Source: Escallonia rubra (Eukaryota > Streptophyta > Magnoliopsida > Escalloniales > Escalloniaceae). From it: DNA of 64,000 nucleotides. This document shows, one piece after another, positions 660-57,502 of this stretch. The DNA is taken from NCBI GenBank assembly GCA_033065855.1, contig JAVXUO010001960.1, forward strand, positions 186,001 through 250,000, in the 5' to 3' direction. The translations under genes and the position numbers were made by a program. Numbering within the stretch: the stretch's first letter is position 1; every line of letters begins with the position of its first letter. The notes beneath the pieces are model-generated. The model was not told the origin of the DNA and searched no databases. It saw nothing but the letters and a program-made list of their open reading frames with translations.

Positions 660-3600
660 TTACACTTGTGCCATTTCCTTTACATTCATCGGATAGCAGT
701 CTGAGCGTCGGCCTGAGTACGCCTTTCGGGCAAGTATTTGGTTTACAACTTGGGTTGGATGGAATGCATCCCAGAATACATATTGGTTCCTCTGCATGCA
801 TGGAACTGAAAATGGAAGGCAAGTGACCTGCCCTTGATTTCTTCCGACACCACAACACCCGCTATCAGTATTCGTAAACCCTGCGGCATGCATGTGCATA
901 CAGATGAGCAGCAACAATTTCTTCTCAAATTCTTTACTGCGCTTTACGACTTACTCTTAATTTTTTATTTTTTTTTTATCTTTCGGATCTACAGGAGGCT
1001 GAATAAGATGGGGACCAGCCATAAGATATTGGACTTGGGTGTTACCTAGAGTAGTTTTTATCACAAGAGCCACAAAACTTGTGGGTGATTAGAAAAAATG
1101 AAGCTTGGATTGTTTCTTAAACCTTATTACCTTGTCAAAAATGACATACTACAATCACTTAATATGATTGGGTGGTTATAAGAACTTGGACTCTGTACTG
1201 GTCAGACAAATCTTGTCCACCCATTAGATCATTCTGCATAAATTCGATTTTTATAGGTTGCAACACGTATCGTTACCGTAGTATGTGTATCACTCGGTTC
1301 TTACGCCAACAAGCGACTTGGAGGTGAGCTTGGTATACCATTAGGAATATATCACCCTTGTGGTAATTTAGTCTCGTGAAATAGCAAAAGAAAAGGCAAG
1401 AGAAAATACATTAGTGCTACCATATATTGGTTCATAGCACTAGTCTTACCATAAATTGTAGCATTCTGTAGTATGTCGTCGAAGGCTCCGTAAGTGTTTC
1501 CGTATACAAAGACTGCATCACCGTAGTTGGAGTTTAGCTGATCAATGAGTGCTACAAGTCTTGCGTTGAACAATTTAACCATGTCATTCACATAAGAAAC
1601 GCATTTTCCGTGAGGAGCAAGACCAGTAGCTATTTGATTGGGAATGCAACCAAGTGGACCAACTCCGGCCAAGAAGAACTTCCTAAGTCCTAAACTGTAG
1701 AGTGCCTGTAAAATTATAGAATCCACAGCTTTAGAACTCGTTTCATTAACCCATTCTTCTTTAGTATGAATTAAAAGCTGGGTTGGCATTGAATTTGAGA
1801 AGTGCAAAAGTTCTTTCTGTGCTCAAACTGACTGGATGTGTGCATTTGACTGCAACTTGTTTTTTTCTTTGATGAGACTAGACACATGCTTTTAGCTGTA
1901 AAGAATAAAGTATAGGTCAAAACGTACCTTAAAGAACATATATGATTTGATTTGTGCATTATGTTTTAAACATACCAAATTTGTACGTATATCAACTTAA
2001 CTTTTTAGCCAAACTTAGTTCCACATTAGATTAAGCGTAACAGACGCCAGGGGCAAAAGCCCGGAAAAAACTCTTTCATGGTAGTAGCACATCACCTACA
2101 CGTCATTAATCTCACCCATCCTATATAGCCACGTAATCATATTAAACTCTGCTTTCCAAAAAAAAAAAATGGAAGAGTAAAATACGCTAACGATCACCTG
2201 ACTTTATGCCTAGTAGCAATTTGGTCACTAGACTAGCATTTCTGTCTAAGTGACCACTCTATCCGTTGATTGGTTCAATCGGGTCCTTCTTTCACTTTTG
2301 AGTAGCCTCAGGCCCGTAAGGTACCCATGTTCGAGGCACATGGGGAGAAAGGGAAAAATCGTCAAAGGAAAAACCAAATTCTCTTTTCTCTTTTTTTTTT
2401 CTTTCCCTCACTACAAGAAAAATAGCTTTTTCCGACGGACTTTTAACGACGGAACAAAATCCGTCGCTGAAAGTCACTTTTACCGACGGATTTGCTGTCG
2501 ATAAAATCTGTCGGAAAAAACCTAGTTTTAGTGACGGATTTATCCGTCGGTAAAAATCCGTCGCTAAAGACCTTTACCGACGGAATATTCCGTCGGTAAA
2601 TGTCTTTACCGACGGATTTTCTCCCTTTTTTTGAAATTTTTATTTTAATTTCTTTTTTTATTTTTCGCTAAAGACTATATATAAATAAGCAAACCCTAGT
2701 TTGTTGTCATCTCCCCGCCGCTCATTTCTTTCTCCCCTTCCCAACCCCCTCTTCTTCTTCTTCTTCTTCTTCTTCTTTCTCTCACGTAGCCGACCGTCGG
2801 CCGTCACCCATTATGCCGACCACGTACACGCCTTCTTTTCCTTCTGCCCGTATTCTTTCCTTGTGTGAACGCCCACGCCCTCCTTTTCCTCCCTTCTCTC
2901 TCTCTCTTCGCATGCCCGGTTTTTTTGTGTAAACGCAATGGGAGAGGAGAAGGCAAAGCCGGCCGGAGTGTGGCCCACAGTGAAGCCGTTCGTCAATGGG
3001 GGAGCCTCCGGCATGCTCGCCACCTGCGTCATGATCCAGCCCATCGACATGATCAAGGTTTAAGAACCCCCTTTTAAGATCCCCTTTTTTTACAATCCTT
3101 TTGTTCTTCTACTGTTTTACCCTTGTCATTTTACTAGTGTTGACATCCTTTGAAGGCTTTCAGATCTTGGATCCGATGTTTTTTTTTGTTGTTGTTGAAT
3201 CTTGAACTTTATGTTTTGCTAGTATTTAGTGTAGCTTTGAGGGGTTGAAGTTTATGGTTTTCTGTGCTTATAATTCCATCTTCGAAGGGGTTTGGACTTT
3301 GGATCTTTACTCAAATGGGTTTCTCATTAAAGTTAAATCTTGCGCTTTTTGTTTCCCTTTTGATGTTAGGATATTTTGATGTGGGCTTGGTGGGTTGAAT
3401 TGCTTCATTTTTTTGCTGAAAAAGATATGTTTGAGGACGTTTCCATCTTGGTTCAAATGGGTTTTGTTAGTTCTTTGAGCTGTTTCATAATGTAGTAATA
3501 GTTTTGGAACAGTTAGTGGTTATTCTTTGTTGACTATTGAGCTTTATGGTTTGCTAATATAAGTGTAGCTTTGAGGAGTTGAAGTTTTCAATTTCTGTGC

Positions 3601-6600
3601 TTTGTAATGCCATCTCTGAAGGGGTGTGGATCTTTTATCAAATGGGCTTTCACTTTTGTTAGCTTTGTGTTTTGTATTTTACTGTTAGGAGTTTTAGAAT
3701 TGAACTTCGGTGGGTTACATTGCTTCATTTTTGTGCTCTAAATTGACTTCTGTTAGGATGTTTGGATCTTGGTTCAAATAGGATATTGTTGATTTCTTAA
3801 GTCACTTATTTCATATTTTAGTTGTAATTTTGGAATTAGTTATAGCCGTTAAGAGGTTTAAATAATTGTTTTCTGTTTTCTGGGTTTAATTTTGAGCTGA
3901 ATGATGAAATCTTCAATGTCCTCATTAGGTCTTAAGAGCAAATGGGTTTATCGTTTATCAAAAGCTTTGAATTTGGATTAGTTAAGTTGTGTTGTAATGA
4001 GGTTCTTGCTTTGAGGTTATTTGTGATAACTTAATTGGTTCTTTTGTCAATTACAGGTGAGGATTCAATTGGGTCCGGGATCAGCAGCCCAAGTGACGAG
4101 GACCATGCTTAAAAATGAGGGTATCGGAGCTTTCTACGAGGTTCAATTTCAGTATTGATTTTTCTTCACATTTGCTTTAATTTCCTTGATCTCTTATGTA
4201 GGAAGATACACATAGGTAATTCTTAGGGGCCTGGCACATGGGTACATGCATTTTTTGCAGACATGGGATTTTAATTGCAAAAGCAACCGTGTGCTGGGGT
4301 ATGTGTGATTGCTTCTTCTTTTCTTCCTGTAGTCATCTCATTTTGGGGTGGTCTTAGTGCACAAGGCTCTCAGCATTACGGGTGTTTGGGGAAGGTCTCG
4401 TTTTCATTGACTCCCTAATTAATTGATGTGGAAAAGTATGGAGTGAGTTGGAGTTTTTGGCTTCCAGATGAATATTTTGGAATCTCAGTACTATGTTCTT
4501 TCAAAAGTTAATGCTCTGCTTACCCTGTTCATTTTTTTTTTGGTTTTCACTAGCTTGATTGCTGTACTAATTAGAACAAACTGGAAAATTTGTTGTGCTA
4601 GCATATCTGCCAATGTTGTGCAAGCATACTTGTTTGTTCGATAATACTCTTGTCAAGAGTGAATTGTGTTTCAGTTATATATTTGTATTCTAAGGTGAAG
4701 TCCTCCAAGGTGACAGTTATGGTATGGCTGCTGTAGGTATAGATGCAGGGGTTGAGTCAACCAAAAATTATGTTGAGGACAAGGATGAATGGCTTGGCTT
4801 TTTTACTGAGGTTTCACAGTTAGTGCATTTTTCTTCCTCTCCATTTCTTGCAGATTTTTTTTGGCACCACATTCAAGCCAGAGATCTTACAGCAATGTTC
4901 CTCAGCCACATGCTTTATTGTATTACTCGCAGGGAGCTACCAAAAGTTCCTATTATAACTTGTAATTTTGTTTTGGGATTCGTACGATATGATGTATTCT
5001 ACTCGTTGAATATCTAATTTTGTTGTTGAGTATTGAGTTTTAGTTGGTGGTGTATGATTTCAATTTTATTTGTATTGCTTGAAATTTGGTAAAGAAAGAA
5101 TGCTAGCTTAAATAAGCATGATATTGTTGATAGATTTGTTAACTAGGATTAATTGTCTATGGATTAAAAAATAGCTCTTTTTTTTTAATTTTGCTTACGG
5201 ACATTTAGTGACAAAACTTCGTCGCTAAATGTATTTCAAACAAATGGATGTGGTTTTTTGTGACGAAAATACGCCGCTAAAAGGTTTTTTTTTTCAATGA
5301 CATGTTTGTAATTAGCGACGGATTTTAAACTTTTAACGACGGAATTCTATCGCTAAATGTCTGGTTATAGCGACAGCGGCGACAAATCTGTCGTTAATAA
5401 TTTTTTTGTCATTTTTATAAAAAATTAAGAAATTTTAGAAAATATCTTTACCGACAGAATATTCCGTCGGTAAAGGCATTTAATTCCGTCGATAAAAGTA
5501 AACTTTTTGCCGACGGACCACCAAATTTCGTCGCTAATCTTTTAGTAACGGGGTTTATACCAACGGACTTTTAGCGACGGACTGTCCGTCGCTAAAAGTA
5601 TTACCGACGGAATATCCACTTTTAGCGACGGAAAATTCCGTCGCTAAAAGTAGATTTTCTTGTGGTGCCTTCCCTTCTTCTTCTTTCTTCTTTCTTCTTT
5701 CTTCTTCCATCACCCTCAACCTGCCAACACCGCGATCCTACACACACATCCATTGCTGTCACCGCCGCCACCACCACCACCCCATACCACCTCTGTCACC
5801 ACCTCATATCCCGTCGGACCACCATTTATGTGATGTCAAGGAAGTGGGTTTGTAGATCATGTGAAGGTGCCAAAAAGGATACAGTCCAAGTCAGAGCCTA
5901 AGGAGTGGCAGTTCAACAAGGGCAAACTGAGGCAAATATAGGTTGACAATCCAAGCTAGGCTCCAATATCACGGTCAAAATGTCAAGGTCCAAGTCAGCG
6001 TATTGAGTCAGAGTCCAAGTCGAAGAACTTTCTCTCTTTAGAATCTCTAGCTCTAGAATTACAGAGTGAGAACGTGATTTTTTTTTTATATATATAAATG
6101 ACATTCCAGGTGTTCAGAATGAAATCTAAAGTACTATACTTACGGGCAAAGATATGCATGTATCATCAAGCAACATATGACACCTCTTAGGAGTGACACG
6201 TCATCAGGGGGTCCATAAATGTCGATGCTCCTTAGACTGTCGGATCACATATTCGTCCTGCTTGCCCTGCATAGATTCACTCTTTATATTATGTCTGATA
6301 AGATTGCCGACAAAGTACCGGCATGGCTAGAGAATGCCCTTGATCTAGGTACAATCAAAGCTCTTAATTACTAAGTTCCACAGGGGGTGTCATGAGACGC
6401 ATCGAACTTAAAAGTCCTGGGGGAGGGTCCCTAAGCCTGACTCTCAGGCGGATTAGGCGCGATGCCCTTCAGATACTTGCTCCCATCTTGGAGTGACCCA
6501 TGATATTCATCCTGGGGGAATCAATGATCATTGGTATCGTGAGTATGACTTGGTCATAGCTCAGGCAGCCTAGTGTCATGCCAGTCACGCCAGGCGGAGA

Positions 6601-9600
6601 TATTGTCTCGGAGAACAAACATATCATGTTTCTAAGGTCCTCATGGCGGAGCATTACGAACGAAGCCCCTTTGGATGCTACAAAATCCTAAGTGTGGGTC
6701 GAAGCAAGTTCCACATCCAAGATGGATCGGAGGGCACATGGTGTATTGAATAGATGGACCAACGTTTTGTGCATGGTAGCGTGAAAGGGTGTCGGGTCAC
6801 AACTGTGTAATTAGCACGATGCGAATGTGTGATGGGATGTTTGCGGTGCCGGGGGTACGCTTAATGATGATGGCACGACGCCGTGGAAAATGAGTGTCGT
6901 GCGGGGCACGTGACATGGTGACAGCGCATAGGCATGGCCAAAGGAAGGAGTGTTGGGGGCACATCAAATGGGAGGCGGCGCTCGAGCGCGATGACGGGGT
7001 GTCACGGAGCAAGTAGTTCCCATGAAGAAGAGAGGCTGTTGATGATGAGTCTCTTGCGAGAAAGCAACGGCCGACTATCATATGGTAGGCCGACTGCTTA
7101 CCCACATAAGGAAGGATGAAGGCCAAGGCTCATGCCAAAGCATGTGACTTGAGCGTGTTCTTTGGGCTGACCAGTTTAGGGGCATGAACTTTGATTTTAA
7201 AAATGACGTCGCAAAAATTGGACTCGATGGGTTGTCAAAAGGTGTGACCTGATGGGCTAGTAACATATTGTTCCAATCATTCTCTTCTTCTTTCCACAGT
7301 ACCACCACCTTAACCCACCTCTGCTGCCGTCCATGACCACCATGATGACCCAACTCACCATCTCCCCCACCAGCCACTTAATTTGAGCCACCACACCACC
7401 TCACAACCACTACCCATCATCTTGCAGCCATAACCCAACCTCACTAAAGTACCACCTACCTCACTACAACCACCTTACCTCGTACTAATCATAACATCCA
7501 CCTCCCAAACCAACCATCATATACCAACTGAAAGCAGTGATGCAGTTGAGGATTCAAGAAACATTCAGCTAGAATCAAATCTGACTGATTCATTTCATTA
7601 CTTATGCATTGATGCCAATGAAAGTGGGTTCGCAGTCGATGGGGAGGTGCCACAAGGAATGCAGTCCGAGTCAGATGCCAAGTATGTTGATGTGAGACAC
7701 AGCAAGGGTGGAACAAGGGCAGAGACCAAGGGCTTCCCAGATAGAGCCTGAGGGTGGCAGTGCTGCAAGGGTGACGGCACACGGTGAATATACGACGACA
7801 GTCACAGTCTGATGCTTAGGTCCAGAGTCAAGGTCTTGTATGTTTCTCTCTCTAGAATTTTAGAGGATTTAGATTCTAGAGTGAGAAAGTGAAAATGTCG
7901 AATGAGAGAGTTCTGTTGAAAATGAAATCCAAAGTCCACTGTTTATAGAGGTTGAGATGATGATGTCATCACGCGACAAGTGGCTCTCCCCGGGAGTGAC
8001 ACATCATCGATGAGGTCCACAGGTGCCATTGCTCCACGGACTATCGAATCGCATATTCACACGGCCTGCTCTTCACAGTGTCGCTCTGTCTGTCTGGAAA
8101 GACTGGCTCCCACAGCGTCGGTGTTGCCAGAGAACACCCCTTGATCTAACACCAATCCAAGCCTTTGCAGAGTCCCACAGGCCTGGCAGTGGTGGGGAAG
8201 CTCCGACGCCCAACTACCAGGCGGACTAGGCGCAATGCCTTCCAGAGACCTGCTCCCGTCTCGAACTGACTCGGGGGTCATAGTCCCTAGGGGTGCTGAT
8301 GAAGCCCCCAGTGCCGGAGCACGTAGGCCAGTCACGCAGACACCCTGGGAGAGATAGTGTCCCGGAGGAGTCGCCTATCCCCGCGGGTGAGTCCTTGTGC
8401 CGGAGCACTTGGAGCGCGTCAAAGTAGCATCCCGGAGGAGCCATCAACCCAACAGGCCGATGTAGCATCCCGGAGGAGCCGTCTACTTGGCAGAAAGGGA
8501 GTTGAAAAGCTCCCTAGCGGAGATAGTGTCCCGGAGGAGTCGCCTATCCCCGCGGGTGAGTCCTTGTGCCAGAGCACTCGGAGCGCGTCAAGGTAGCATC
8601 CCGGAGGAGCCGTCTACCTGGCGGAAGGGGAGTTGAAAAGCTCCATATCGGAGATAGTGTCCCAGAGGAGTCACCTATCCCTGCGGGTGAGTCCTTGTGC
8701 CGGAGCACTCGGAGCGCGTCAAGGTAGCATTCCGGAGGAGCCGTCTACCTGGCGGAAGGGGAGTTGAAAAGCTCCATGGCAGAGATAGTGTGCCGGAAGA
8801 GTCGCCTATCCCCGCGGGTGAGTCCTTGTGCCGGAGCACTCAGAGCCCGTCAAGGTAGCATCCCGAATGAGCCATCTACCTGACTGGTCGAGGTAGCATC
8901 CCGGAGGAGCCGTCTACCTGGCGGAAGGGGAGTTGAAAAGCTCTTTGTCGGAGATAGTGTCCCGGAGGAGTCGCCTATCCCAGCGGGATGCTGCACACTC
9001 CGGAGAGTGGGTCGAAGCATGTTCCACGACCAAGGCAAGGTGCGCATGGTGTGGTGAATGAGTGTGATGCCCGGAGGTCTGTAACGTGATTGTGGCGCAT
9101 GGGCGTAGCGACGAACGTCGCGAAACAATACTTGGTGCCCGGGGCACGTAGTGTGACAGAGAGCCAGGGGGGATGGATGTATCAGCGGCGCGGTGCATAG
9201 GAGCGGCGGAGTGTGAGAGTGCGGTGTGCGGGCACCTACGATGGGGTCGCGAAGACAGCGCATGGGTGGAGGCGAGAAAGGTCGCGGAGACGGCACGTGG
9301 GCGACGGGAGTCGCGGAGTTGTCACGCGAACACGGGCGACGAAGGTCGCAGAGGCGACACGCGGGCGCGGGCGACGGGAGTTACAGAGCTGGCGCATGGG
9401 CGATTGGTGTCGTGGAGACAATGTGCGGGCGACGAGAGTCGCAGAGCTATCGCGCGGACGTGGGCAACGAAGGTCGCGGAGATGTCGTCTGGGCAACGGG
9501 GGTCGCGGAGATGACGTCGGTGCGACGGGGGTCGCAGAGATGATATTCAGACGACCGGCACAGGAGTTGCGGAGCCGGCTCATGGGCAACAGCGACGGGC

Positions 9601-12600
9601 ACCGTGAAGCAGGCGCGCGGGTGCGGGTTATGTGAGTTGCGGCGACGGCGCACGGCCATTGGCGATAGGCACCGTGAAGATGGTGCACGGGCGATGGCGA
9701 CGGGCTCCATGAAGCCGGCGCGCTGGCAAGAACGAGTATCGCGGAGTGAGTGAGGTGATGGCGCACGGGCACGAGCAAGGGGCGCCGTTGAGTAAGAGCA
9801 TGGGCGACGGTGGGCATCGTGAAGACGGCGAGGCGACGAGCAACAGTCGTCGCGACGACGGAGTGCGGCGACTAGCGACGGTCATCGCGACTACGGCGTG
9901 CGACAGCGAATGACGGTCGTCGGTTGTCAAGGAAGGTGGCTGACCCCCCGAGGTGGCCGACCCCCTAGGGTGGCTGACCCCTTAAGGTGGCTGACCCCCT
10001 TAAGGGGGAAGGCACACCAAGGTTGCTTCACAAAGGGAAAATACACGTGACTTGATTATGTGACGCTTTGACCGACCTGTGAGCGTTGAAAAGTTGACCG
10101 TTGAATGTGTCAACGTGTCATGAAAATTGGGACCCCCAGTGAGCCTATATGTGTAGCCAAGATCGGTTGAGAACATGCATTTTACACATGTAAATATTTT
10201 GTGTATAACTTCCATTAAAGAACCCTAAATATTGTACGTAATGCCGTCAACAAATATGCAATTTGACAAAGACCACGGAGAGCTGAACGAATGGCTTAAA
10301 GTCAAAATTATATTAAAGCAACAGATCACATGGTGATCTCAGTAAACGTATGTTGCATAATGAAGGGATGATAGTGGTGGTGTGCTGAGATGGTAATGGG
10401 TGGTGATGGAATGTGAAGATGGTGGCTAGCGGGGAAATGAGTTGTAGGTGGTGTGAGATGCCATTGGAGGTGGTTCATTGGTGCCCGCCGTGATGCTGTT
10501 GTGGTTGGTGGTTATAGTGGTGCACCGGTACAAAATGGTGTAAAAGAGAAAAAGAGCATATAGAAAAAAACAACTTAAACTAGAAGTTATTAATGACCTA
10601 ATGAAGGTTTTTCATAAATGCGCAATTTGTCTCTTGAATATGTGACGCATATGGGACTTTAATTGACATTGGACTAATTAAGTTGCATTTAGAACACGAG
10701 GATACTCAAGTTAGAAGGTATCTTTATGATTTTGACATTGTGTTGGGAAGCCCAAATATTGGACCTTGAGCATGTGCATATCTGTGTATCTGCGTATCTG
10801 TGAACTAACTGCCTTTGAGCAGTCCACAATGTAATTTCGCGATGAAAATAAACAAAAAGTGCTTTGGAAACTGCTTCCCCCCAAACAGACCATAATCATT
10901 TTGATAATTTGTAGTAAACAAAAGAACCCTAAACTGACATTAAAACTACTTCAAAATGCAAAATGGACTTACTAGGATATTCCTTGCGTAGTGCTTTATC
11001 AGAAGATCAGCGTAGTCTGTTGGGTTGTACGTGTAGCTGGTTGTATACAAGGAAGACAAGAGATAGTTATTGATGTAGTCATTGCTGCCAAGGATGAGCA
11101 CCGCCAAAGCCTTCCTCAAATGTTGGTTCAGTTCCTGGTCGTTCATTTGCTTCCTCAATTCACCCAAAGTGCTTTCAAAGTTCTGAACTTGTTGGCTGAA
11201 GCTGAACCGTTCACCCTGGTGATCAATTCCTCCGTCAGTACTATTGTGGCCATGTTAGCGCACATGTAGATGTAGAATTTGAGGAATCTAAAGTAAGAAA
11301 TGTAACACTAAAATCAGTGGAGATTACTAGAGTCTGTCCAGTCTCTTCCAGAATGCCTGCGGCAGCTGAAGCATAGTTCACTCCCTTGAGAATGTCTCTG
11401 CTGCTAGCAAAAGGGTTTGAATACGCAGGAAGAAGAGGAAGTTCCAGTAAATCCCCTAAAGTTTAAAACAAAATGGAAGAGACCCAGTGAGAAGGACATG
11501 GTGGTAGTGGTCATAATGCTTGGTATGAGATGGTTTGCAGAGAAGTACGTAGAACTTGAAGTTTATAGCCAGAGAGTGACCAACTATTTAAAATTTTGAA
11601 GTCAAGTTTTTCGTGTGTTTCGCTCTTTGCTTTTAATGTATGGGCATGCTTTAGTGCCGCTTGGTACTCGGTGGAAATCGAAGATGCAAAAATTGATTTC
11701 TTGTGTTTTGGTAACGACCCATGAGAATTGACAATACTGATCTGGCTCACACTCGAGATTATGTCTCGTGCATTTGAGAATATGTCATCTATCGTCGTGG
11801 CAGGTGCAAGCGCAAGCGCCCACGTACCTTGTTTCTCTCTAGTGCTTCCATAACTACGAGGTTCAATGAAGCTTTTAGTTTTCCTGAAAAAGTTGGCAAT
11901 TTTTATTTTTCCTTATTGGGGTTAATTACAGTACTCAGCCCTATTAAGGTTTGTGGTTACAACGGTGAAGTGCATGAGGTATCATAAATTGTAGTAACCC
12001 TTCTATATATAGTTCTATCACCAACACAAAATTAAACGTGACAAGATTACCCTTTTGAGTTCATTTTTAATTTTCCATCTTCATTCGTCAATCCAAATCA
12101 GATAAGACCCAATTTCTTTTTGCCTCATCTTAATCAAAGTGTGTTTCTCCATAATTTTTATTTCACTTTTCTCATCCCTATTGAATCACCGATGTGGAAT
12201 CGTTCATCACGTCAACTTGGCTTTACATACCTATCAATAGAGACACAGCCAGAACCCCGGCCGCGGAGACGCACATACGTACTAGCCGATGTCATACTGG
12301 AGGAAGATAAGAGCCATCTATTGGATAGTATATCCGGGTGCAACTAGCGTGTCCAAACGCCAGTATCGACTTCACCACTGATTAAAAATATCCTCTCCGA
12401 TCTCTTATCCCACATGCCAGACACACCAAATGTGCAGCATTAAACCTTGAACTTTTATAGACAGTGTTCCAAGAATGGTTTAAAGGTTAGGAGTTGGCAT
12501 TTTATTCAACATGATTCCTTGAATTTTGTGCTCTCTTAGACATGACATTCAAAATATGAAAGGGAGAAATGGAAAAGAGGGAGCATAATTTTGGACATCA

Positions 12601-12932
12601 CGCCTCATAGAGTTTTGAGTCACAATACGTTTATTTGTTTCTGTTTGTATGCAAAAATCAAGAAACGTAAAAATAGTTTTACCGAGATAGTCAATGATGG
12701 TTCTTCCATTACAGAATCTGCCAGATGGTCCTTGGTAGAAATCGACACCATAAGGCACATAGTTGGCTTTCGCGAGAGAGTTGAGGTAGTTATTGTTTCC
12801 AGAGTCAGTCAACGAATCTCCAAAAGCATACATGGCTGTGAACTGCACCGCCGCTGCCATCACCTTGTCCGAAGAAAGACCCGCCATTGACAACAACATC
12901 ATCATGATTGGGCCTGCCCTGCGTTTCTCCAT
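660..12932 (-). CDS. GDSL esterase/lipase, 5 exons, 365 aa, secreted
   Basis: Five exons on the minus strand join in frame: 12932-12683, 11455-11328, 11215-10973, 1705-1450 and 880-660, all with GT-AG borders, giving 1098 bp including TAA. GDSL lipases are secreted serine hydrolases of lipids and acyl esters. Block I is GDSLTDSGNNNY with the nucleophile Ser40; block II is KGVNYASAAAG (Gly108, Asn110); block III is GSND (Asn171); block V is DAFHP (Asp330, His333). The Met-rich N-terminus (residues 8-28) looks like a signal peptide. The start is the ATG giving MEKRRAG; an upstream in-frame TTG is not needed. Length is typical of plant GDSL proteins. Intron 3 (10972-1706) is about 9.3 kb and full of transposons, yet every exon is free of stops. 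The exon-3 acceptor is the least certain: a nearer upstream AG would bring in an in-frame stop, while the chosen one gives the family motif GERFSFSQQVQNF. Substrate is unknown. Confidence 0.92.
2409..5667 (+). mobile_element. Non-autonomous CACTA transposon carrying host gene exons (Pack-CACTA type)
   Basis: The left end is CACTACAAGAAAAA and the right end is TTTTCTTGTGGTG, so the termini are inverted repeats with one difference in the CACTA core. The 3-bp direct repeat CCT flanks both sides (2406-2408 and 5668-5670), the size CACTA elements make. Subterminal regions (about 2430-2620 and 5190-5655) are packed with direct and inverted copies of TTAGCGACGGA and TTACCGACGGA, the usual binding-site repeats of Spm/CACTA elements. 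No transposase is present. The middle holds two exons of a mitochondrial carrier gene with introns. The element sits in intron 3 of the GDSL gene, its cargo antisense to that gene. Confidence 0.93.
2938..4140 (+). pseudogene. DTC: Captured fragment of mitochondrial dicarboxylate/tricarboxylate carrier (exons 1-2)
   Basis: Exon 1 (2938-3057) encodes 40 residues with KPFVNGGASGMLATC and the carrier signature P-x-[DE]-x-x-[KR] as PIDMIK (residues 35-40). Exon 2 (4057-4140), after TTACAG, gives 28 more in frame (VRIQLGPGSAAQ, then MLKNEGIGAFYE). This matches the N-terminus of the plant inner-membrane carrier that exchanges 2-oxoglutarate, malate and citrate; the family has about 300 residues and six membrane helices, so most of the protein is missing. 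The intron is retained, so genomic DNA was captured, not cDNA. Exon 2 ends on a poor donor (GTTCAA); reading through gives a stop five codons on, a product of about 73 residues. A TATA-like stretch (about 2682-2692) and a CT-rich leader precede the ATG. From memory of the family, CVMIQP has one extra Met. Confidence 0.85.
5830..7250. repeat. LTR-like dispersed repeat, copy A (no expanded array)
   Basis: It shares a collinear series of blocks with the copy at about 7610-10180: GAAGTGGGTTTGTAGATC, then GTCCAAGTCAGAGCC, TTTCTCTCTTTAGAATC, GAATGAAATC, GAGTGACACGTCATCA, CAGGCGGATTAGGCGC and, near the end, CATGTGACTTGAGCG. On the minus strand a TATA-like sequence is followed by a CT-rich leader in the better preserved copy, which suggests an LTR promoter, but edges and target duplications could not be fixed. 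It has one unit of the motif GGAGATATTGTCTCGGAG that is amplified in copy B. No coding sequence was recognised. Confidence 0.55.
8349..8990 (+). repeat. Tandem array, ~130-bp unit with two ~170-bp variants
   Basis: The motif GAGATAGTGTCCCGGAGGAG recurs near 8351, 8520, 8650, 8781 and 8951. Each unit runs on through CGCCTATCCCCGCGGGTGAG, TCCTTGTGCCGGAGCACTC, GGTAGCATCCCGGAGGAGCC and GGGGAGTTGAAAAGCTCC. Spacing is about 130 bp in the middle and about 170 bp at both ends, where a ~40-bp piece (GGTAGCATCCCGGAGGAGCC plus flank) is doubled. Copies are highly similar, so the expansion looks recent. Confidence 0.85.
9232..9560 (+). repeat. CpG-rich minisatellite, ~30-bp irregular unit
   Basis: The core GCGACGGGAGTCGCGGAG recurs with changes near 9301, 9337, 9370, 9400, 9429, 9464, 9493 and 9522, spaced 27-36 bp. 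The same core makes up bases 1-150 of the window. Weaker GCGACGG/CGTGAAG units continue to about 9920. Long open frames on both strands here are a by-product of the GC-rich repeat, not genes. Confidence 0.75.
9930..10012 (+). repeat. Short tandem repeat GGTGGCTGACCCC
   Basis: Four consecutive imperfect units of GGTGGCTGACCCC, about 20-22 bp apart. A related GCCGACCCC motif occurs near 215-275 in copy C, so this is part of the same repeat family. The following stretch to 10972 is intron of the GDSL gene with GGTGG-rich low-complexity sequence near 10370-10530 and nothing else recognised. Confidence 0.6.
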
Positions 12933-14464: not shown

Positions 14465-16887
14465 TGTCACGACCCGAACCCACGGGTAGGCCCATGAGCT
14501 AGATCTGTGATCGGCTGCAGACCCACTCGGACATCCATTCAGGGCTCTGCCAGGCCTTATTAAAACCTGTATACAAATCTAGAGTCATGCATTTAACTAA
14601 CACCTTAATAAGACTTCTAAAGTGGTACTTAAAGATCTTTCTGAAAATTATCTCTACTAGATTCCTCCATGAATGACCAACATAAATCATTAAAACTTAA
14701 TGGAGATCTAAGCTCCAATCAATTCTCAAAATATAAATAGAGTAGTAATACAATTTCTCAAAAGGGCTTAAATTAACTCCTTAACGAGCATCTTTTGCGA
14801 CTCCATCCTCATTACCCTCATAGTACTCGGGTTCATCTAAGTGATCACCTGAAAACATTTATAAAAGGGTGAGCTGGGGCCCAGTAAATACACATGCCAT
14901 ATCCCTAAAATAGGTTTGAGGATTTCAAACATGTCATGTGTTTTTCTTTTCAAAATCAGGAATGCAATGTCACCACAATAAAATATTACTCAACATATTT
15001 ACATACATAAATGCACTTGCACCAAAAGAATCTCAATTGGAGTATAATCATCAAGAAAACTCATTAGTAATTGTCACCATTAATCATAACTTGGTATACT
15101 GCGGTGAGCGTATGGTCACACTGACTAGGACCCAAAATCTCTCCTCCACTTGGGATAAACAATATTGTGGACGCAAGGGTGAACCACGATGCAATAGTAC
15201 TGTGCGTCAATGTATGGTCTCGTTAACCAGGACCCAGAATTCACTTTCCCCCATGGATGTAGGGCACAGTAACCCAGTCAAATTATCATATCATTCAACA
15301 TGTATCGGATATAGTTCATTTACTCGCACAACAATTCCATGATGCAAATTCTCATCAAGTGATTTATCATGAAAACAGATGCAGTAAAAGTATTTCAAGA
15401 CATTTATTTGACTTAAAACATGTATACATTATATATATTTTACAAATAGAGTATAAGGACAAATATGGCAGAGTAATAACCTCGCTTAATAACTGGTTCT
15501 TGTATTTGCTCAAAAGTCGGTTCTAACTCTTGTCTATCGAAACCTAAATGACAAACCACACGGATGTTATTCATTGCCGCTCGACCATGCATAAGTATTA
15601 AGTTTCCCCCAAGTGAGTAAAATTACCAAACTGCCCCTAGACTTCTGTAAAATTACCTATTTACCCCCGACGCCTAACGTACCATTACACACCCAGAAAT
15701 AACCTAAAAGAATCTTTTTAAACAACTAGGTGGGCTTTTCGGACAAGAATGGCCTTTCTGAGAATTTTCTGTTCGGAACCCTAAACCACTCCTTAAATTG
15801 AGCGTTAATGTTCCTGTTTCAAAAATATATCAAACGGCACCGAAATGGCACGAGATTTCAGAAGCTCAAGCACCTCAATGTGTTTAGACCACTGTAAAAA
15901 TTTTGGCTAAAAATATATTTTTTTTACTATATCAAACAATTCAAAAGCATATTTTTAAAATAAAATCATTTCAGGCCCACTCCATGCCCAGAAAATTCCA
16001 TGTTAAAGGTTTTTCAACAATAATGAGATTTTTAGTTTTGTACTTTGCCCAAATATGCTTAGAAATAGTTTAAAAAGTTTTGGGCAATGGACTGATCTGT
16101 AATTCTAGAAACAACATTTTTTCAGCAAACCCTAGTTTTGTACATTGACCATTTGGAGCCTAAAACATGACGAATATTAGAAAACTCAAAACTAAAAAGT
16201 TATAGTAGACTTTCTAAGGTTTTCAGAAATATAAGGTTAAAAAAAATTCAATGAGTAATGAATTCACTACGGTAAATCGAAGTGGCTGATCAAAACATCA
16301 CATCTTTGTACATATCAGTTTTGTTCAATGGCTATTTTGGAGGAGAAAAACTATGAATATCAGAAAACTCACTACAAAGTTGAAGAGAACTTTTTTAGGT
16401 TTCTAGAAATATAAATTTCACAAAAATACCATGAGTAATTAATTTTCTATGACAAATCGAAGTAGATGCCAGAAACTGAAAAATATGAACTTCTATAGTG
16501 AATTGAATTTAAGATCATTTTTCAATTTTCAAACGTGAGATTCTAAGAAAACTCAAAACTACAAAGTTGAGGGCGACACAATGACGTATTCAGAAATAGC
16601 AAAATCATCTCAATTAGGATTTGAAATAAAGGAGATATGATAAAAATCCTAACCTACTATTATGCTGCTCTACAACAGCCTCCTTCTCAAACACACCCAC
16701 ATCTCACTCTCTGAAACACACACAATACTCTAGCACTCAAACCAATAACCACTGAATTCATACATAAAAACCTAGCTAGGACACCCAATAAAATGGCCAA
16801 GATTAAAGAGAGAGGCTAGAGATTTTTACCTTGAAATCTTCTTGCCATAGCTTGCTTCTTCTTCTTCTCACACTCTCTCTCACTCTC

Positions 16888-21116: not shown

Positions 21117-21795
21117 CACTACAAGAAAATATGCTTTTAGCGACGGGTTTTTACCGAGGGAAGAGATTTCGTCGGTAAATATATTTTTACCGACGGAACA
21201 CACCGTCGGTAAAACCTTCATCGTTAATTAATATTACCGACAAAACATACTGTAGGCAAATATTTTTGCCAACAAATTTTTTTGCGGCGGTCTTTTAGTG
21301 ATGAAATTACCGTCGCTAAAACTTTTTTTATAAAATTAATTTTTTGGAGGGTTTTATTAAATTGTTTAAGAGACGGAATGTTACCGTCGCTAAAACTTCC
21401 GTCGGTGAAGGCCATAATTCAGCGACGGAATAAAAGTGTTCCTACTATCAGTTAATTAGCGACGGACTATTCCGTCGCTAAAAAGCTTATTTAGCGACGG
21501 AATATTTCGTCGCTAAAACATTTATTCCGCCGCTAATTTAACAAAAAGAAAATAAATTAAAATACTTAAATTATAATTAGAGACGGATATTCCGTCGCTA
21601 ATTAAAAATAAATCCGTCGCAAAAACTTACATATTACACGACGGATTTGAAAATTCCGTCGCCAAACTATTAGTAACGGACTTTTATACGAAGGACTTTT
21701 AGCGACGGTAAATCCGTCGCTAAAATATTTAGCGACGGATTTTAGGCTTTTAGCGACGAATTTACCCGTCGCTAAAAGCCTTTTTTCTTGTAGTG
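21117..21795. mobile_element. Short non-autonomous CACTA element, 679 bp
   Basis: Termini are CACTACAAGAAAATATGC on the left and the inverted TTTTTTCTTGTAGTG on the right. The 3-bp repeat ATA lies on each side (21114-21116 and 21796-21798). The whole element consists of TTAGCGACGGA and TTACCGACGGA repeats in both directions with AT-rich spacers and has no coding capacity. It belongs to the same family as the element at 2409-5667. Confidence 0.92.
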
Positions 21796-23239: not shown

Positions 23240-24165
23240 CACTACAAGAAAAACAGTCTTTTTCGACAGATTTTTACCGACGGACCAAAATCCGTCGCTA
23301 AAAGTCATATTTACCGACGGAAACACCCGTCTATAAATATTCGTCGTTAAGGCCTGTTGGTAAATACCTTTAGCGACGGATATTTACCGATGGGCTTAAA
23401 CGGATGGAGTATCCGTTGATAAAAGATTTTTCCCTATTTTCTATTGTTGATCAAATTTTTAAATGTTTTTAGAAAATATTTTGTGACGGGATAATAACGA
23501 CGGAATGTAATCCGTCGCTAAAAGTAGCTTTTTGTGGTGGAACTTGTCCATCGCTAAAAAGCCGTCGCTAAAGACATTAAATAATTCCAACATAGGACTT
23601 TTAGTGACGGATTATTTTTCGCTAAAAGTCATTTAGAAAATTTCAAAACAAGCCTTTTAGTGACGGAATAATCCGTTGCAAATTTCATTTAAAAATTTTA
23701 AGACAGGATTTTTAGCGACGGACCTAAGTCCTTATCCGTCGCTAAAAGTCCTGAGAATAAAACCCTAATTTTCTCTCTTTCTCCTCGCCGCTTTCACCTT
23801 TCTCTTTCTATTTTTGCCGTCGACCACCTCGACTGTCGTCTCACCAAGCGTCCACCACTCGAGCCCGCTCCCGCCCGGCCACCTCCCCATCTCTGCCACT
23901 GTCCCTTGCCACCAGCGTCTCCCATTCGACACGTATTACGGGCACCACCGTGCCTCCATTCCCCCACCCCAGCGTCATCGAATATCGAGCCCTTCTCCGG
24001 CCGGCCGTGACCACCACTGTCACGTCACCTCGCGCAGTAATCACAAGCCTAAGAGATAAGCCACCACTGTTGCGGCCTGCCGCTGCCGCACCACCAGTGC
24101 CGTCGCCTGGCACCTACCACTACCACCGACCACCCCCCCCCCCCCCTCCACTTGTACGTATTTAG
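23240..24165 (+). mobile_element. Left half of a third CACTA element with a GC-rich insert
   Basis: The left terminus CACTACAAGAAAAACAG is followed by TTAGCGACGGA/TTTACCGACGG repeats to about 23750. Then AAACCCTAATTTTCTC and a CT-rich leader resemble the layout just before the captured exons of the element at 2409. From 23815 to 24150 the sequence is GC-rich, codes Pro/Ser/Thr/His-rich peptides in several frames and ends in a poly-C run; no known protein was recognised. I found no matching right terminus downstream, so the end given is only where recognisable element sequence stops. Confidence 0.6.
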
Positions 24166-30530: not shown

Positions 30531-31385
30531 GCACCAAAGATACAATGAACGGTGCCTTAGGGAACCACCCATTGACATCAAGACTTTGACGCCATCAAAT
30601 AATCGTGCCTTTCAAATTTTACAGGAAATCTGAGATAGGAAAATTTCTCTATTACAAATTGAGAAAAGTCCACCTTGGTAAGAACTCAAGAATATATGAT
30701 CCCACTACTCAAGCTAGGAAGCTATAACTTACAGAAGGACTGAGGGCCAAAGAAGTTCCCTCACAAGAGTAGCGTGGTAGCAAGAACGTACCTTATTTGA
30801 CGTAATTCCGATAAGCTATCAAAAAACTTCGTTCTTCCAAAATTCTTGAACCAAGCATGATTACACCTCCACTAGCAACATTGTATGGATCGAGTCAAAA
30901 GAAAAACCAACAGTAAATTCCCACTCAAACATTTAAGAGATAATCATTTACAGTGTCGTATGGAATAGCTCGACTAAGTTTGATGACATGCACTCAACCA
31001 TCACCTCCACTTAACCCCAAGGGCATTCATAGGAACTCTATGTTCCACTGTCTCAAAAGGCATTTACATGAACTCTATGGTATATTCTCCTTCAAGGGTT
31101 GATCTCAAAAGCCCAAGCTTTTGAGAATGGGATTTTAAGAAGGCTCTACCTCGAGAAGAGAATGCATTATATGGGAATTCATTAACCCATTGTCCTTACT
31201 TTTTCTCCAAAACTTCATACATATGTGCTAGATTAGATTTACCAACTCTCAAGGTAACCCAACGTATACAAGCACTTGCCCCAATTTGCGTAGAAAGGCT
31301 AGAATGGGCATTCCTTCTAAGGATCTCAAGATCCGATGATTCGTCTTCCCAAAGACAAGTCCCAACAGCTTGCCCGAGCATGCCT

Positions 31386-31800
31386 CTATCCAAGCAGAGC
31401 TCCTGGATAATTAGTTTGGGTATAATTCTAAGCCTTAGCTCTCAAGAGCTCGAGTGTGAACAGCTTGTTAGATGAGCCTCTATCCACGCAAAGCTCATAG
31501 AGAGCCAGTTTGGGAAAAATTCTAAGACTTAGCTTGCAAGAGCTCAAGTCTGAACATATTGTCCAAGGAAACCTTTGTCCAAGAAGAGTTCTTGGACAGC
31601 CATTGGGAGAAATTCTAAGACTTAGTTGTCAAGAGCTCAAATTTGACTATCTTGTCAAAGAAAACCTCTTTCCACGCAAAGGATTCGGACAATCAGTTTG
31701 GAAAAAATTGTAAGAATTAGCTCTTAAGAGCTGAAGTCAAAACAGCCTATCCAAACAGAGTTCTTAGACATACAATTTGGCCAAAACTTTTGGCCTTAGC
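31386..31800 (+). repeat. ~95-bp tandem repeat, four units
   Basis: AATTCTAAGACTTAGCT-type starts recur near 31421, 31517, 31610 and 31705, each followed by CAAGAGCTC-like and AACAGCTTGT-like segments and by AGAGTTCTTGGACA. The units are diverged. Related fragments (CCAAGCAGAGTTC) continue to about 32010. It may be noncoding sequence of the Gypsy relic. The surrounding 30531-32580 holds no recognised gene. Confidence 0.65.
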
Positions 31801-40775: not shown

Positions 40776-42620
40776 ATTTCTTGATATGGTTGTAGGCCAT
40801 ATTCCACGTTACGATGATTGTTTTGGGATTATTAAGTGACTTTGTTAATTGATCAATGTTATGTACATCATATTCTTTTTATTGGGCTTAGACTACAGGT
40901 AATAGATTAATAATTATTAAGTTTTGACCTTATATTATAACAAGTTTCCTTGATTTGTTTTCCTTTTTAAATCTCTGATTGCTTTTGCCACTACAAATGT
41001 AGTGTAGTCTCCAAAGTGATTCCGGTTGTTACGGTGCTTGACAATCTAACTTAATAAAGAACATCTCCTCCCAGTTTCTATTTATTAGACACAACTTTTG
41101 AGTGTCTGAATGCGTTTGGCATTGCTTAGTTGAGTGTATTATCAAATTAGAGTTTCATTTCTTTATAAAACTTGCTTTTATATGTAAGTAAAGAGTAATG
41201 TGATAGTGAACAATGAAGTTAATACGTATATAACAATAACCAGTAAATGTATTTTTACCTTGTCGGTGACAGGCTTAAGGAGTTGGTGTAGACTGATATC
41301 AATGTTATTTTATCTTGTCTTGCTACTGACTCAAGCTGTCAAAAAATTTTGGTACCTCTTGGTTAAATATGGACAAGACTTTGTGGGCTGCATATCCATT
41401 AGAGTACTGATAGCGGTGAAGCTGAGTTAGATTTGGTTAAGCAATATTTCAGAGGCAGAATTTGTGCAGCTAAATGAGGAAATTGGCCCTAGGTACAGTT
41501 AAAAATTTCAATGACAAGGGTGGCATGGAAGTAACTTTTGTACTAGAGTTACAAACGAATTTTGTGTTTGAGTTTCAAGTGTCGATACCACCTTTCACAA
41601 GATAGTTTGCGGTCCAAAATTGATGTGGACTTAGTTAAATTTGTGTGGTTGATTATATTTTTAAGAATATCTGTTGTTGTTAATTGTTTTTTAGATAAAT
41701 GGCGGATGCCCTTTTTCATTAGATTAATAAGGTTTTGAAATGTTGCAAAAAGTCCTTGACAGAATATGGAATACTTGATGAAGAGGACCCACGCTTCATT
41801 CTTGTCTAGAATAAAGTGTTCCTTAAACTGTAAGCAAAAAATGTGGAATGCAGGCAATGAAAAAGTGCAGTGTGATTATTAATTTACTAGATGAACCATT
41901 TTTAAACTTTAAATGCAAACTATCCAAGTGCATTGCACGTGATAGCCACTGGTATCATTAAAAGAGGAAAATGAAGAAGAACCTGTAGTGTTTCTTCCGC
42001 TCTTGATTGTTTTGCAACTACATTTTTAATACCCTCACTACAAGCAACAATGGCTACATAAGCGGCCAAAAATCGTTGCTATTAAACAAATAGCCACTGC
42101 CAAAGCGTTGCTAGTGGTTCCCTTGCGCTATTGTAGGCTGCGATACTATAGACATATAACATCAGTCATACGTGCTTAACACAGTGGTCAACCGCTACTA
42201 ATTTGGTCTCAAGCCAGGCTAGATAACGGGGCTGGCCTAATTTGGTCTTAAACGGGCCCGACTAATTGTTCTGGGAGAAAAAGGGAGCACAGCATCGATC
42301 CAGGCCCTCGTTTTGATTTTCATATTCAGCTAGAAAATACGCTATTGTACTTTTACTATTTTCACCAAAAAAAATTTAGTTATTTTTTCTTACATTGGGT
42401 TAAGTTTGGGTAAAAAAACTGAAAATACCTCGGAGGCGGAGGTGTTTTTAGTTTTTTGTCACCATTTGAATAATTTTACTAAAAACGAAAATAGAATATG
42501 GTAAATGTACAAAAAAAAAAAAGAATCTTTCTTATCATCATTGCAAAAAAACAGAAAACGAATATGGTAAACGTACGTGCCAAAATCCCTTTTAATGCCA
42601 AACAAGTGGTGACCTAAATT
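40776..42620. other. Intergenic, possible CACTA-like end at 42037
   Basis: No gene is supported. CACTACAAGCAACAATGG at about 42036 starts like a CACTA terminus and is followed by repeats of the type GTTGCTATTAAAC and AATAGCCACTG, but no right end or target duplication was found. Confidence 0.35.
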
Positions 42621-46637: not shown

Positions 46638-46652
46638 TGATTGAAGGTGAAG

Positions 46653-49473
46653 ATGAGTTCGAGGAAAGGAGGTTCATTGTCCAAGGGTAAAGGGGTTTCT
46701 GAAGACTCCAGAGCTGGTATTAATCAGTTGACTGATAGCGTGGCAGATGTTAGCCTGGATTCTGCACAGGATGATGGGTGGGAAGTTTACTCTAGGAAAC
46801 CAAAGGGTAGAGCTGGTGGAAATGGTGCAAAATCATGGGCCCCCGCCCCCCAGAATTCAAGTTCTAAAGCATGGGGGCATTCAGATGTCCCACAGAAAGT
46901 GGGCTTGCGAGGTAATGGTGGATCAGGAAAGGCTCTTGGCAATGCCTGGCAGCCACCAGCTTCGGATTCCACAAGATCTGCTTGGAGAGAAAATCCAAGA
47001 CAAAACATCTACAATCCTACACCAGCTGCAATAATCCCCCCTCCCCAGCAACCATGGAAATTGCCTCTTAAGTCTGCTTCAAGCCAGGCTTCACAAGAAG
47101 ACCCAATGAAAGGAGAGAATATATCTAGTCAATATGCTGATGATGCCGATGAGGTTGAAGATAGAGATGACAGTGATGACGCATCAGATGATGAATTTTT
47201 AAGTGACGACTATGATTCAGATTCAACTCAAAAAAGCTATGAGACGAGGAAGAAGAGCAAGTGGTTTAAGGCATTTTTCGAGAGCTTGGAGACTCTGACC
47301 GTTGAGCAGATCAATGATCCTGCAAGACAATGGCACTGCCCTGCCTGCAAAAATGGACCTGGTTCTATTGACTGGTACCGCGGTTTGCAACCGCTTATGA
47401 CACACGCCAAAACTAAAGGTTCAAAACGGGTGATGCTGCACCGGGAACTTGCTGAACTCCTTGAGGAAGAGCTGCGCAGGAGGGGAACTTCTGTTGTACC
47501 TGCTGGTGAAGTTTTTGGCAAATGGAAAGGACTGAATGATATCAAAGATAAGGATATAGTTTGGCCCCCAATGGTTGTCGTTATGAACACCCGACTTGAG
47601 AAGGACGAGAAGGACAAGGTACACTCGTGATGCCTTCAATAGACCATCGTACTATGCATCTGCCTTGTTCACGCCATACAATGCAGTCAGATACCTTTCA
47701 TAATTTTTCATGCAATCACATCCTTTTTCTTTTCTTTTTTATTCAGTGGATTGGCATGGGAAATCAAGAGCTTCTAGATTATTTCAGCTCATACGCTGCT
47801 GTGAAGGCTCGACATGCTTATGGCCCGCAGGGACATCGGGGGAGCAGTCTTTTGATCTTTGAGGCATCAGCTGTGGGTTATATTGAGGCCGAGCGTCTGA
47901 GTAAGCATTTTGAGGATCAAGGGACTGATAGGGAGGCTTGGGATCGTCACCGGGTGCCATTCTATCCTGGTGGGCATCGTCAGCTATATGGATACATGGC
48001 GGAGAAAGGAGACATCGATTACTTTAACCAGCATTCACAAGGTCTTTCTTTCTTTGATATGCGCATCTTTTAATGCTATGTTGTGGCTATGTCAAATTTA
48101 TCATGCTTTACTATTGTTTAGGTAAAACTAAACTGAAGTTTGAGATGAGATCGTACCAAGAGATGGTCGTGAGCCAAATGAAGCAAATGAGCGAGGACAA
48201 TCAGCAGCTTTTGTGGTTCAAGAACAAAGTTGTTAAAGAGCAAAAGCATTCAAAGGCTCTTGAAGAGTCGTACGGCGTTGTAACTGAAAAGCTGCGGAAA
48301 ACTTTGGAGGAAAACCGCATTGTGAGGCACAGAACAAAGATGCATCATGAGCAAAATAAGGAAGAGGTAATTTATGAACTGCACTTGAAGTTGGTCTCGT
48401 GTGAAAGTGGTCTGCTGCATTGGACGTGGCTTTCTCATGCTTTCTGTTAAGTAATTTGTTTTCTTATGATGTGTAGGATACTCATGTGCTTTCCATGCCT
48501 ATTAAGTTCCCATACCTCAATGTCACATACCAGAAAAGTAATGAGATTCTTCTCTGCAATTTGAGATTTGTATTCTGTTCTAGATTGGCTGATCTCATTT
48601 TAATGAATAGACAAAGTGCAATAATGGAGATGTTTATAAAGCTTATGTGCAAGGCACTTCTGTGCCAACAAATTAGGTTTTTGTTAAGATAAGGGAAGAC
48701 AATGGTTAGTTAAAGTTTGAATTTGTCAACTTCTCTCCACTTGGGAGAAATGGTTTCCCCGTATTTTCAAGTCTTAACTTCTTTCTGATCCACTGTTTGC
48801 ATGTTACATTCCTCTTGCTCATCAGGGAAGTAATGTTCCTCTCTTTTCCAATTTGTTTTTTCTCGTAAGCTTCTTGTGCATGTGTTTTTCCTCCTTAGAT
48901 GGACTCCCAGGAGCAGTTCTTCAAGGAACAGATCCAAATCATCCACAGCGCCAGGGATGCTAAGGAGGACAATTTTGAGAAGATACAGCAAGAGGAGCGG
49001 GAGAAGGTGAAGGTGAAGCAATCTAGTTCAGCTTCAATGGAGGACCATCGACATAGGTGCTGTGCTTTGCTCTTTTAGAACCTAGTGTTGAAGCTATTAA
49101 TATTTTCAACTTGGGATGAATCTGCATCCTACAGTGTGTGCAGTCTGACGTGTTCAAACAGTTCTTCTACACAATCAAATTTATCTCTTTGCGAGTCTAA
49201 GCTGATATCTAACTTTTCTCTGAATTCTGATTTGCGTATAGATTGGAGGAACTTGCTAAGTTTATAAAGATTCAGGACAAAGAGATGGAAGATTTTGTGG
49301 AAGAGAGGGAGAAGCTTATAAAGGTCCACGAAGAAAAGAAGGTTGCTATGAAGCGAAGACACTGGGAAGAAGAGGTTGCACTCGAGAAAGAATTAGACGC
49401 TGAATTTTCTCGGCTTATGGAGAAGTACACCCCCCCAGCACACCGTTCGGAGGAAAGGAGCGACAGCGGCTAG
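46653..49473 (+). CDS. SGS3: SGS3, suppressor of gene silencing 3 (dsRNA-binding XS-domain protein)
   Basis: Coding exons 46653-47618, 47747-48041, 48122-48366, 48899-49056 and 49242-49473 join in frame to 631 residues. SGS3 stabilises cleaved RNA and works with RDR6 in cytoplasmic bodies to make dsRNA for tasiRNA, transgene silencing and antiviral defence. The N-terminal third is low-complexity with DDGWEVYSRKPK and an acidic stretch (about 163-191). A zf-XS zinc finger follows (WHCPACKNGPG; Cys229, Cys232, then His251/His263). The XS domain runs from about 304 (WPPMVVVMNTRLEKDEKDKW) to about 415 with HAYGPQGHRG and FYPGGHRQLYGYMA. Residues 430-620 are a Glu/Lys-rich coiled coil for dimerisation. 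All borders are GT-AG. The start is the ATG giving MSSRKGG; a TTG four codons upstream lies in the leader. Arabidopsis SGS3 is about 625 residues, so it appears complete and functional. Confidence 0.97.
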
Positions 49474-55529: not shown

Positions 55530-57480
55530 ATGGACGGCGAAGGTAAAATCTCTTCTCTGAATCATAACTCTTTGTCGCCGGAGGAGGCTGATTTGTTGGC
55601 CCGTTCTACCAAAAAATTCAAACGCCCACATCCTTAATCACCACCCACTCTTAGCTCTGTGTCTCCCCTCAATAATGAATCAGCGTCACATATGGATTTC
55701 CCTGCGCTGCATCCAACTTCAAGACCCCCAAGTGATCGTACCCATGTTGTTGCATCAGCCAAGGTGTCTTTTGTTGATACGTTAACACGAAGATCAATTT
55801 ATTTTTTATTGGAGATGATAGCGAGGAAGATGATATTGCCGTATTGGAATCCCAGTTGATGAATCCGAATTTGCGATATGCTAATCACCGAGATGAAAGT
55901 GACAATTTTGCAAGGGATGAGTCTTGGCCACGGGTTGAGGTTACACCGGAAGAAATGCGCAGATTGTGGAATCCCTGGAGGAAGGGGCTGGTTGTCAAAT
56001 TGTTGGGACGTTCCATAGGTTTCAAGCTCCTCTATCAACGTATGAAGATTCTGTGGAAGCTAAAAGGGGAGTTGAGGCTATAGACTTAGGTCAGGAATTT
56101 TATGTTGTTCGATTCCAATCACGTGAGGATTACCTTAGCGTACTGCTTGATGGTCCGTGGATAATACTCGGACATTATCTTACTGTTCAGAAATGGAAGC
56201 CTCATTTTCGCCCTCAGCAAGAAGAGATTACATGAACGCTAGCATGGCTTCGTTTCCCTAAACTACCGATTGAGTTCTTTGACGAAGAACTGTTGATGAG
56301 GATGGGGAATAAACTAGAAGTGACTGTGAAAGCTGATAAACAAACAACAGATTCATCTTGGGGTAAATTTGCTAGAGTATGTGTCGAGCTTGACCTGAAG
56401 AAATCTTTGATACCCAAGTTCTGGATAAACAATCACCTTCAAGCTGTGGAATATGAAGGATTGCACTCCATCTGTTTTGAATGTGGAAAGTATGGTCACA
56501 AAGTTGATGCGTGTCCCATTATAAAGCAAGTACCACCAGAAGCAGAACCGTGTCCTAACCAAATGGGCATATCCATGGAAACTGAGACGGAAACGGTAAT
56601 TGCCGACAGAGTTGATGTGCAAAGTTTAGGACTGAAAAATCCAATGTATGGGTCGTGGATGATTGTCAAACCACGGCCGTGGCGCAATAACTTTCGACCA
56701 AATCGTGCTCATAATGGAGTTTATTCGGGGACAACAAACTCAGAATATCGTGTGCATGTCTCGAACAAGCATGTGAGTAGCGAAATTTTAAATAATCGTT
56801 CGCCAAGTCAGTTACCAGGAAGCTCGGGATCTCGCTTTAATGTGCTAGCCACTGATGATGTTTTGGATGACTCACCGAATAGCAAGGCAGTAAATGGACA
56901 GCTTTCTGGCGGTAGGCTGAACTTAGATACACCGGGATATAGTCAAAAAACAAATGCCCCAACGCACACAGGTATTACTAACAAGGGCAAGAGTCATGTC
57001 CGTCTGACCAAGCGTAATTCGCAGCACGCTCCCAATCATAAAAGTAGCGGTATCTTGTCTCCCACAATGACTTATGCCGAAATGTCTCATAATCCTTAGT
57101 TCGTCTCTGGTATAGAGACTGTTGTGTCCAAGCCTGATTCAACAGCTAATGTTGCTCCCTTCAATCCAACGGGTTCTAATGTTTTAATAACTACTTCGTC
57201 ATTTGATTTCACATTTGCAGCTGGTGCATCTTCCTCGCCTTGGCAGCTACCCCTTCTACCTACCAGTTCTTCAAAATTACCACCTCAATTCATCCCCAAC
57301 TGCCCTCAGCCTGAGACTGCATCTTTTAACCAACCCCCAGATGATGATAATCGGGCTTCTTCCATACTAGAGAAAAATGATCAGCAACGAACGTTCATCA
57401 TAGATGAAGGCGATAATCTCCAGGTAAGTCTGGACGAGGATATGGGGACGGGTACCAGGGATCAACTGCCTCGGTATTAG
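55530..57480 (+). pseudogene. LINE ORF1 (DUF4283 and CCHC zinc knuckle), broken
   Basis: From the ATG at 55530 (MDGEGKISSL) the frame stops after about 36 codons and continues after frame changes. The DUF4283 region is readable at about 55900-56235 (RKGLVVKLLGRSIGFKLLYQ, then in another frame VLLDGPWIILGHYLTVQKW). After a TGA at 56233-56235 come LAWLRFPKLPIEF and WGKFARVCVELDL, then the zinc knuckle CFECGKYGHKVDAC (about 56479-56520). A TAG at 57097-57099 is followed by the same frame to 57480. Plant L1 ORF1 binds RNA. At least two frameshifts and three stops disable it. Confidence 0.8.
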
Positions 57481-57502
57481 CAACTGGTATTTCATTATTT
57501 TT

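Follow-up and report, generated by a model that had tools for sequence, protein, structure and literature searches.

The soybean CACTA element Tgm-Express1, which carries five gene fragments in 5.7 kb and is located in intron 2 of F3H, has its captured exons spliced into host transcripts (PMC1947982). Pack-CACTA elements have been described in Arabidopsis and maize (PMC8903248), and the work of Catoni 2019 on Pack-CACTA capture is covered by a review (PMC13317346) and by PMC8903248. In Chenopodium, CACTA elements carry captured Neprosin or AP2 fragments (PMC8978399). We analyzed a 64,000-nucleotide stretch of the Escallonia rubra genome (assembly GCA_033065855.1, contig JAVXUO010001960.1, positions 186,001 to 250,000, forward strand), referred to below as the window, whose own numbering is used throughout. 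It contains a whole CACTA element of 3259 bp (2409-5667), which is very probably a non-autonomous Pack-CACTA comprising the 5' end of a mitochondrial carrier gene of the DTC type and, apparently, a piece of an OPR1-type gene (12-oxophytodienoate reductase), inserted in intron 3 of a GDSL lipase-type gene.

Architecture of the element and its insertion site

Both ends of the element were identified. The CACTA end motif is present, while the right end has CACCA, one base off; the right terminal sequence, TTTTCTTGTGGTG, finishes at 5667 and forms an inverted repeat with the left end, CACTACAAGAAAA, in which 12 of 13 bases pair. Immediately outside both termini is the same 3-bp target site duplication, CCT. 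In the window (GC content 40.5%) we counted 45 copies of the subterminal unit CGACGGA/TCCGTCG, 19 of them within the element; 100 single-base shuffles contained 4.0 copies on average and never more than 10. Direct and inverted repeats across several hundred bases, as expected of the subterminal regions of CACTA (En/Spm) elements, are found at this locus, and the subterminal arms form near-perfect palindromes (for example, 2553-2586/2587-2620, 94%). The complete termini, the duplication and the subterminal repeats had all been recognized in an initial annotation, made from the sequence without database searches, and our counts bear this out.

No transposase family was detected by Pfam at E values up to 1 when the entire element was translated in six frames, with X at stops; the scan was carried out on the segments 2409-4141, 4141-5200 and 5140-5667, and the sole family listed was Mito_carr. 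Rfam gave no match at the gathering threshold, and no plant relative was found among the viral contigs or genome contigs databases searched. The sequence at 2409-5667 is a non-autonomous CACTA element with host coding DNA and without a detected transposase of its own, which are two features of Pack-CACTA elements. Its ends would have been mobilised in trans by a transposase encoded elsewhere.

The host gene is intact. Its spliced coding sequence reads through 365 codons with GT/AG borders throughout and matches the Pfam Lipase_GDSL model at 7e-35. The element lies inside intron 3 (1706-10972, 9267 nt), with the captured exons antisense to the GDSL gene, as the initial annotation had placed them. 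The same intron also contains a 131-bp tandem repeat of 3.2 copies (8462-8882). The composite element would have been inserted in intron 3 at a later stage, in antisense orientation and with duplication of CCT, leaving the GDSL frame intact, and the likeliest state of the insert is that of an intronic sequence that is spliced out or silenced. Its near-perfect palindromic arms would also suit an element acting mainly as a source of small RNAs, formed from the subterminal inverted repeats or by antisense pairing with GDSL pre-mRNA, which might silence DTC, OPR or GDSL; we regard such a role as conceivable and on balance unlikely, and the intronic nature of the insert in the GDSL gene speaks against it. 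The coordinates of all features, among them the directly observed ends, duplication, exons, OPR piece and GDSL reading frame, are collected in Table 1.

Table 1. Features of the CACTA element and of the GDSL gene that surrounds it.
Feature	Position	Strand	Remark
Target site duplication CCT, left copy	2406..2408		Seen in sequence
Left terminal inverted repeat CACTACAAGAAAA	2409..2421	+	Seen in sequence
Left subterminal block of CGACGGA/TCCGTCG repeats in both orientations	2427..2630		
TATA-like hexamer	2676..2681	+	Consensus match only
Leader, 52% GC	2690..2937	+	First ~45 nt resemble element C at the equivalent place
Upstream open reading frame, 39 codons and stop	2813..2932	+	Stops 5 nt short of the DTC start codon
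Captured DTC-like exon 1, 120 nt, 40 codons	2938..3057	+	Pfam, DTC query
Carrier intron 1, 999 nt, GT..AG	3058..4056	+	~74% internal duplication
Captured DTC-like exon 2, 84 nt, 28 codons	4057..4140	+	Ends in GAG, followed by GT
Composite non-coding stretch	4141..4853	+	DTC intron-2 donor at start, OPR-side acceptor TTTCTTGCAG at end
Captured OPR1-type exon piece	4854..4953	+	Alignment covers 4852-4953, its first codon crossing the intron end
Right subterminal repeat block	5200..5659		
Right terminal inverted repeat, CACCACAAGAAAA read on - strand	5655..5667	-	
Target site duplication CCT, right copy	5668..5670		Seen in sequence
GDSL lipase-type gene, 5 coding exons	660..12932	-	Stop end 660 counted from the 365-codon reading
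GDSL coding exons	12683-12932, 11328-11455, 10973-11215, 1450-1705, 660-880	-	

Apparently captured carrier and reductase sequences

The left part of the interior corresponds to the start of a carrier gene. Two exons with GT/AG borders join in frame to give 68 residues, and the 73-residue reading that includes them matches the Pfam Mito_carr model at E 6.4e-10. Searching with an Arabidopsis DTC query that is not a database record, we found 83% identity over 41 columns for exon 1 (E 3.5e-15) and 70% over 30 columns for exon 2 (E 7.4e-9), in agreement with the two DTC exons and intervening intron proposed initially. A continuous carrier gene with further exons downstream had been named as a finding that would speak against capture; the DTC query identified no such exons in the 64-kb window, where the next best match had an E value of 1.4, and instead of a complete DTC exon set exons 1 and 2 alone were found. 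Because the carrier intron is retained, capture at the DNA level is indicated, again as proposed, and the carrier part would represent the 5' end of a DTC-type gene consisting of exon 1, intron 1 and exon 2. Intron 1 itself contains a tandem duplication (3192-3509 / 3527-3835, 74% alike).

Relative to the DTC query, the captured copy contains one additional residue in helix 1, directly before the PxD motif. When aligned to solved carriers, it shows a gap at this site in two of four UCP2 repeat alignments, the other two having none, and in none of the three alignments to the GTP/GDP carrier 9wv2. An extra residue before the PxD motif of the captured carrier is probable from these comparisons. 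Exon 2 closes with E, at a position where K is found in the DTC query and in those repeats of both solved carriers that align best.

A second host fragment, part of an exon from a 12-oxophytodienoate reductase gene, was overlooked in the initial annotation, which recognized the DTC-like exons correctly and was incomplete in treating the content as carrier-only. The stretch 4852-4953 translates to RFFLAPHSSQRSYSNVPQPHALLYYSQGATKSSY, and 20 of its 34 residues are identical, without gaps, to residues 26-59 of Arabidopsis OPR1 (1vji). It is only a fragment, and it has the N-terminal OPR1 stretch LAP..QRSY.NVPQPHA..YYSQ as seen in 1vji. In phmmer searches of solved structures, OPR1 (1vji) was matched at E 5.2e-7 with a 35-residue query and at 2.5e-6 with an 88-residue query; a second OPR1 entry, 1icp, was likewise matched (E 1.4e-5 and 5.2e-5). 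When the OPR1 piece was used in tblastn, the next place in the window after 4852-4953 scored 23.5 bits. The match opens with an A directly after ATTTTTCTTCCTCTCCATTTCTTGCAG, a pyrimidine-rich CAG acceptor that, judged by eye, resembles a strong plant 3' splice site; such an acceptor just ahead of the OPR match would fit the capture of the last part of an OPR intron together with the exon.

OPR is apparently a second captured gene, which would make the element a two-gene chimera with the DTC/OPR capture junction predicted to lie somewhere within 4141-4853. On the alternative that the 5' end of DTC alone was captured, 4141-5190 would be DTC intron 2 with an OPR-like stretch arising by chance. 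The exon 2 donor does lead straight into intron-like sequence, no stop-free run in 4141-5190 is of unusual length (85 of 1000 shuffles equal the longest), and Pfam finds no OPR domain there. We nevertheless consider single-gene capture very unlikely, given the 20 of 34 ungapped OPR1 identities directly after the CAG acceptor and a tblastn score of 45.4 bits, compared with the best OPR1 score of 21.9 bits in 500 shuffles of the element. According to the two-gene reading, genomic DNA from two unrelated host genes, both in the same orientation, would have been captured by CACTA activity, with the OPR part, located downstream, contributing the end of an intron and the start of an exon from an OPR1-type reductase.

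Two other candidates within the interior were rejected. A 107-codon stop-free run at ~4690-5010 (GEVLQGDSYGM...) is not claimed as another exon: Pfam is silent on it, the solved-structure search gave just E 0.64 and 0.89, and an equally long run was seen in 85 of 1000 shuffles. Matches to HisF and designed TIM-barrel proteins (best E 0.036 and 0.0065) run across stop codons and involve proteins with internal repeats, and we attribute them to chance. Since the solved-structure search is blind to short exons (the carrier exon 1 frame had no match at E 1), there may be further small captured fragments.

Related elements and coding potential

Two relatives of the element, here called B and C, are located 15-18 kb away in the window. 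B is a complete 679-bp CACTA miniature element (21117-21795) with ATA on either side. C is represented by its left end only, from 23240 onward (23240-24160), with a C-rich interior, and no right end for it was seen with up to 2 mismatches beside the family repeats. Over its left 82 bp the element is 86.6% identical to C, and its right 249 bp are 72.6% identical to B over 252 aligned columns. The element thus has ends in common with B and C, whereas its captured DNA was found only once in the window. Judged by their best-matching ends, B, C and the element are in the same orientation. B and C are separated by 1444 bp, and close same-family pairs of this kind are an arrangement proposed to precede capture (PMC8903248).

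The relationship to C extends to the leader. A TATA-like site and a leader had been noted initially as accompanying the carrier exons; the site at 2676 is present, and the origin of both from DTC is doubtful. The leader's opening stretch (AAACCCTA...CCGCCGC) aligns to C at the equivalent place, right after the last subterminal unit, with a score of 30 that none of 2000 shuffles reached (maximum 29). The same score was tied by a non-CACTA place at ~16081-16121 among the 3189 window stretches scored. These data are suggestive only, and the leader may be partly transposon-derived.

If the + strand is transcribed, the donor of DTC exon 2 at 4140 could be spliced to the OPR acceptor at 4853, producing a 102-residue chimera in which OPR is read out of frame; if no such splice occurs, read-through would give a 73-residue carrier fragment. 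The latter open reading frame (ORF) is as initially described. A useful protein is unlikely because of the 39-codon upstream ORF and the probable extra residue, and the mismatched frames of the DTC and OPR fragments weigh against a working protein as well. A working chimeric gene, in which a CACTA or DTC promoter would produce a spliced DTC-OPR transcript encoding a small membrane protein, could draw on the TATA-like site, the leader, the start codon, the splice-site consensus and the ORFs of 102 or 73 codons, and the soybean precedent of captured exons spliced into transcripts is consistent with it (PMC1947982). We give it only a slim chance: the upstream ORF has its stop 5 nt before the start codon, the probable extra residue precedes the PxD motif, and OPR is joined out of frame. 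Highly improbable, too, is the more ambitious possibility of a gene nursery, where a transposon-derived promoter and leader might drive the chimera of carrier donor and reductase acceptor and generate a new 102-residue membrane-anchored protein antisense within a working GDSL gene.

Several points weigh against the reading of the element as a two-gene Pack-CACTA. Capture is deduced from the sequence within the window. The exact identity of the carrier, which we take to be DTC, is based on the Arabidopsis query sequence, which is no database record. The identification of the OPR piece comes from the solved-structure search and tblastn, with Pfam silent on it, and splice sites were assessed by eye. 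Finally, a degenerate left end at ~5166, which could be a remnant of the fusion of two neighbours, scored 41, which placed it joint 22nd-23rd among the 25 top-scoring separate sites listed; the candidate does not stand out from the repeats of the family, and it lends no clear support to a model of capture by fusion.

Elsewhere in the window, CACTACAAGCAACAATGG... at 42036, with CCCT just before it, could be the left end of an element from another CACTA-like family. A gene with zf-XS and XS domains, presumably SGS3-like, is located at 46641-48070; together with the GDSL gene it gives the window the appearance of plant DNA. A LINE-type retroelement (long interspersed nuclear element) is present in pieces at 56293-60438, comprising zinc knuckle, endonuclease-like, reverse transcriptase and zf-RVT stretches, with zf-RVT alone above its Pfam cut-off. 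A 94-bp tandem repeat of 3.9 copies occupies 31382-31745.

Significance and comparison with known systems

The locus offers a clean, complete and apparently two-gene Pack-CACTA within an intron of a host gene, and members of the same family lie near it. Such an element could serve for dating captures and for testing whether same-family neighbours generate Pack elements, as well as whether splice sites from two donor genes merge into new introns. It also carries a warning for annotation, as both the carrier exons and the OPR piece might be mistaken for fragments of functional genes.

In the open-access literature searched, we found no report of a CACTA element with a captured mitochondrial carrier or a captured OPR, and among the matches listed there was no mention of di-tricarboxylate capture by CACTA. 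As in the Pack-CACTA and Pack-TYPE elements of PMC8903248, CACTACAA ends enclose host coding DNA and no transposase was found, and as in the local pairs described there, same-family neighbours are close by and in the same orientation; the present element differs in having no clear internal end remnant. The Chenopodium CACTA elements similarly carry host gene fragments alongside terminal inverted repeats (TIRs) and subterminal repeats (subTIRs), whereas their AP2 fragments are located 5' in elements that keep coding domains, and no transposase was found here. Comparison with Tgm-Express1 (PMC1947982) shows both elements to be CACTA transposons with exons and introns of unrelated host genes, located in an intron of another gene. 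They differ in the genes captured and in the number of fragments, two found in 3.26 kb here versus five in 5.7 kb, and transcripts were shown for the soybean element. The element belongs to the known Pack-CACTA kind, and this instance of it is new and closely parallel to Tgm-Express1.

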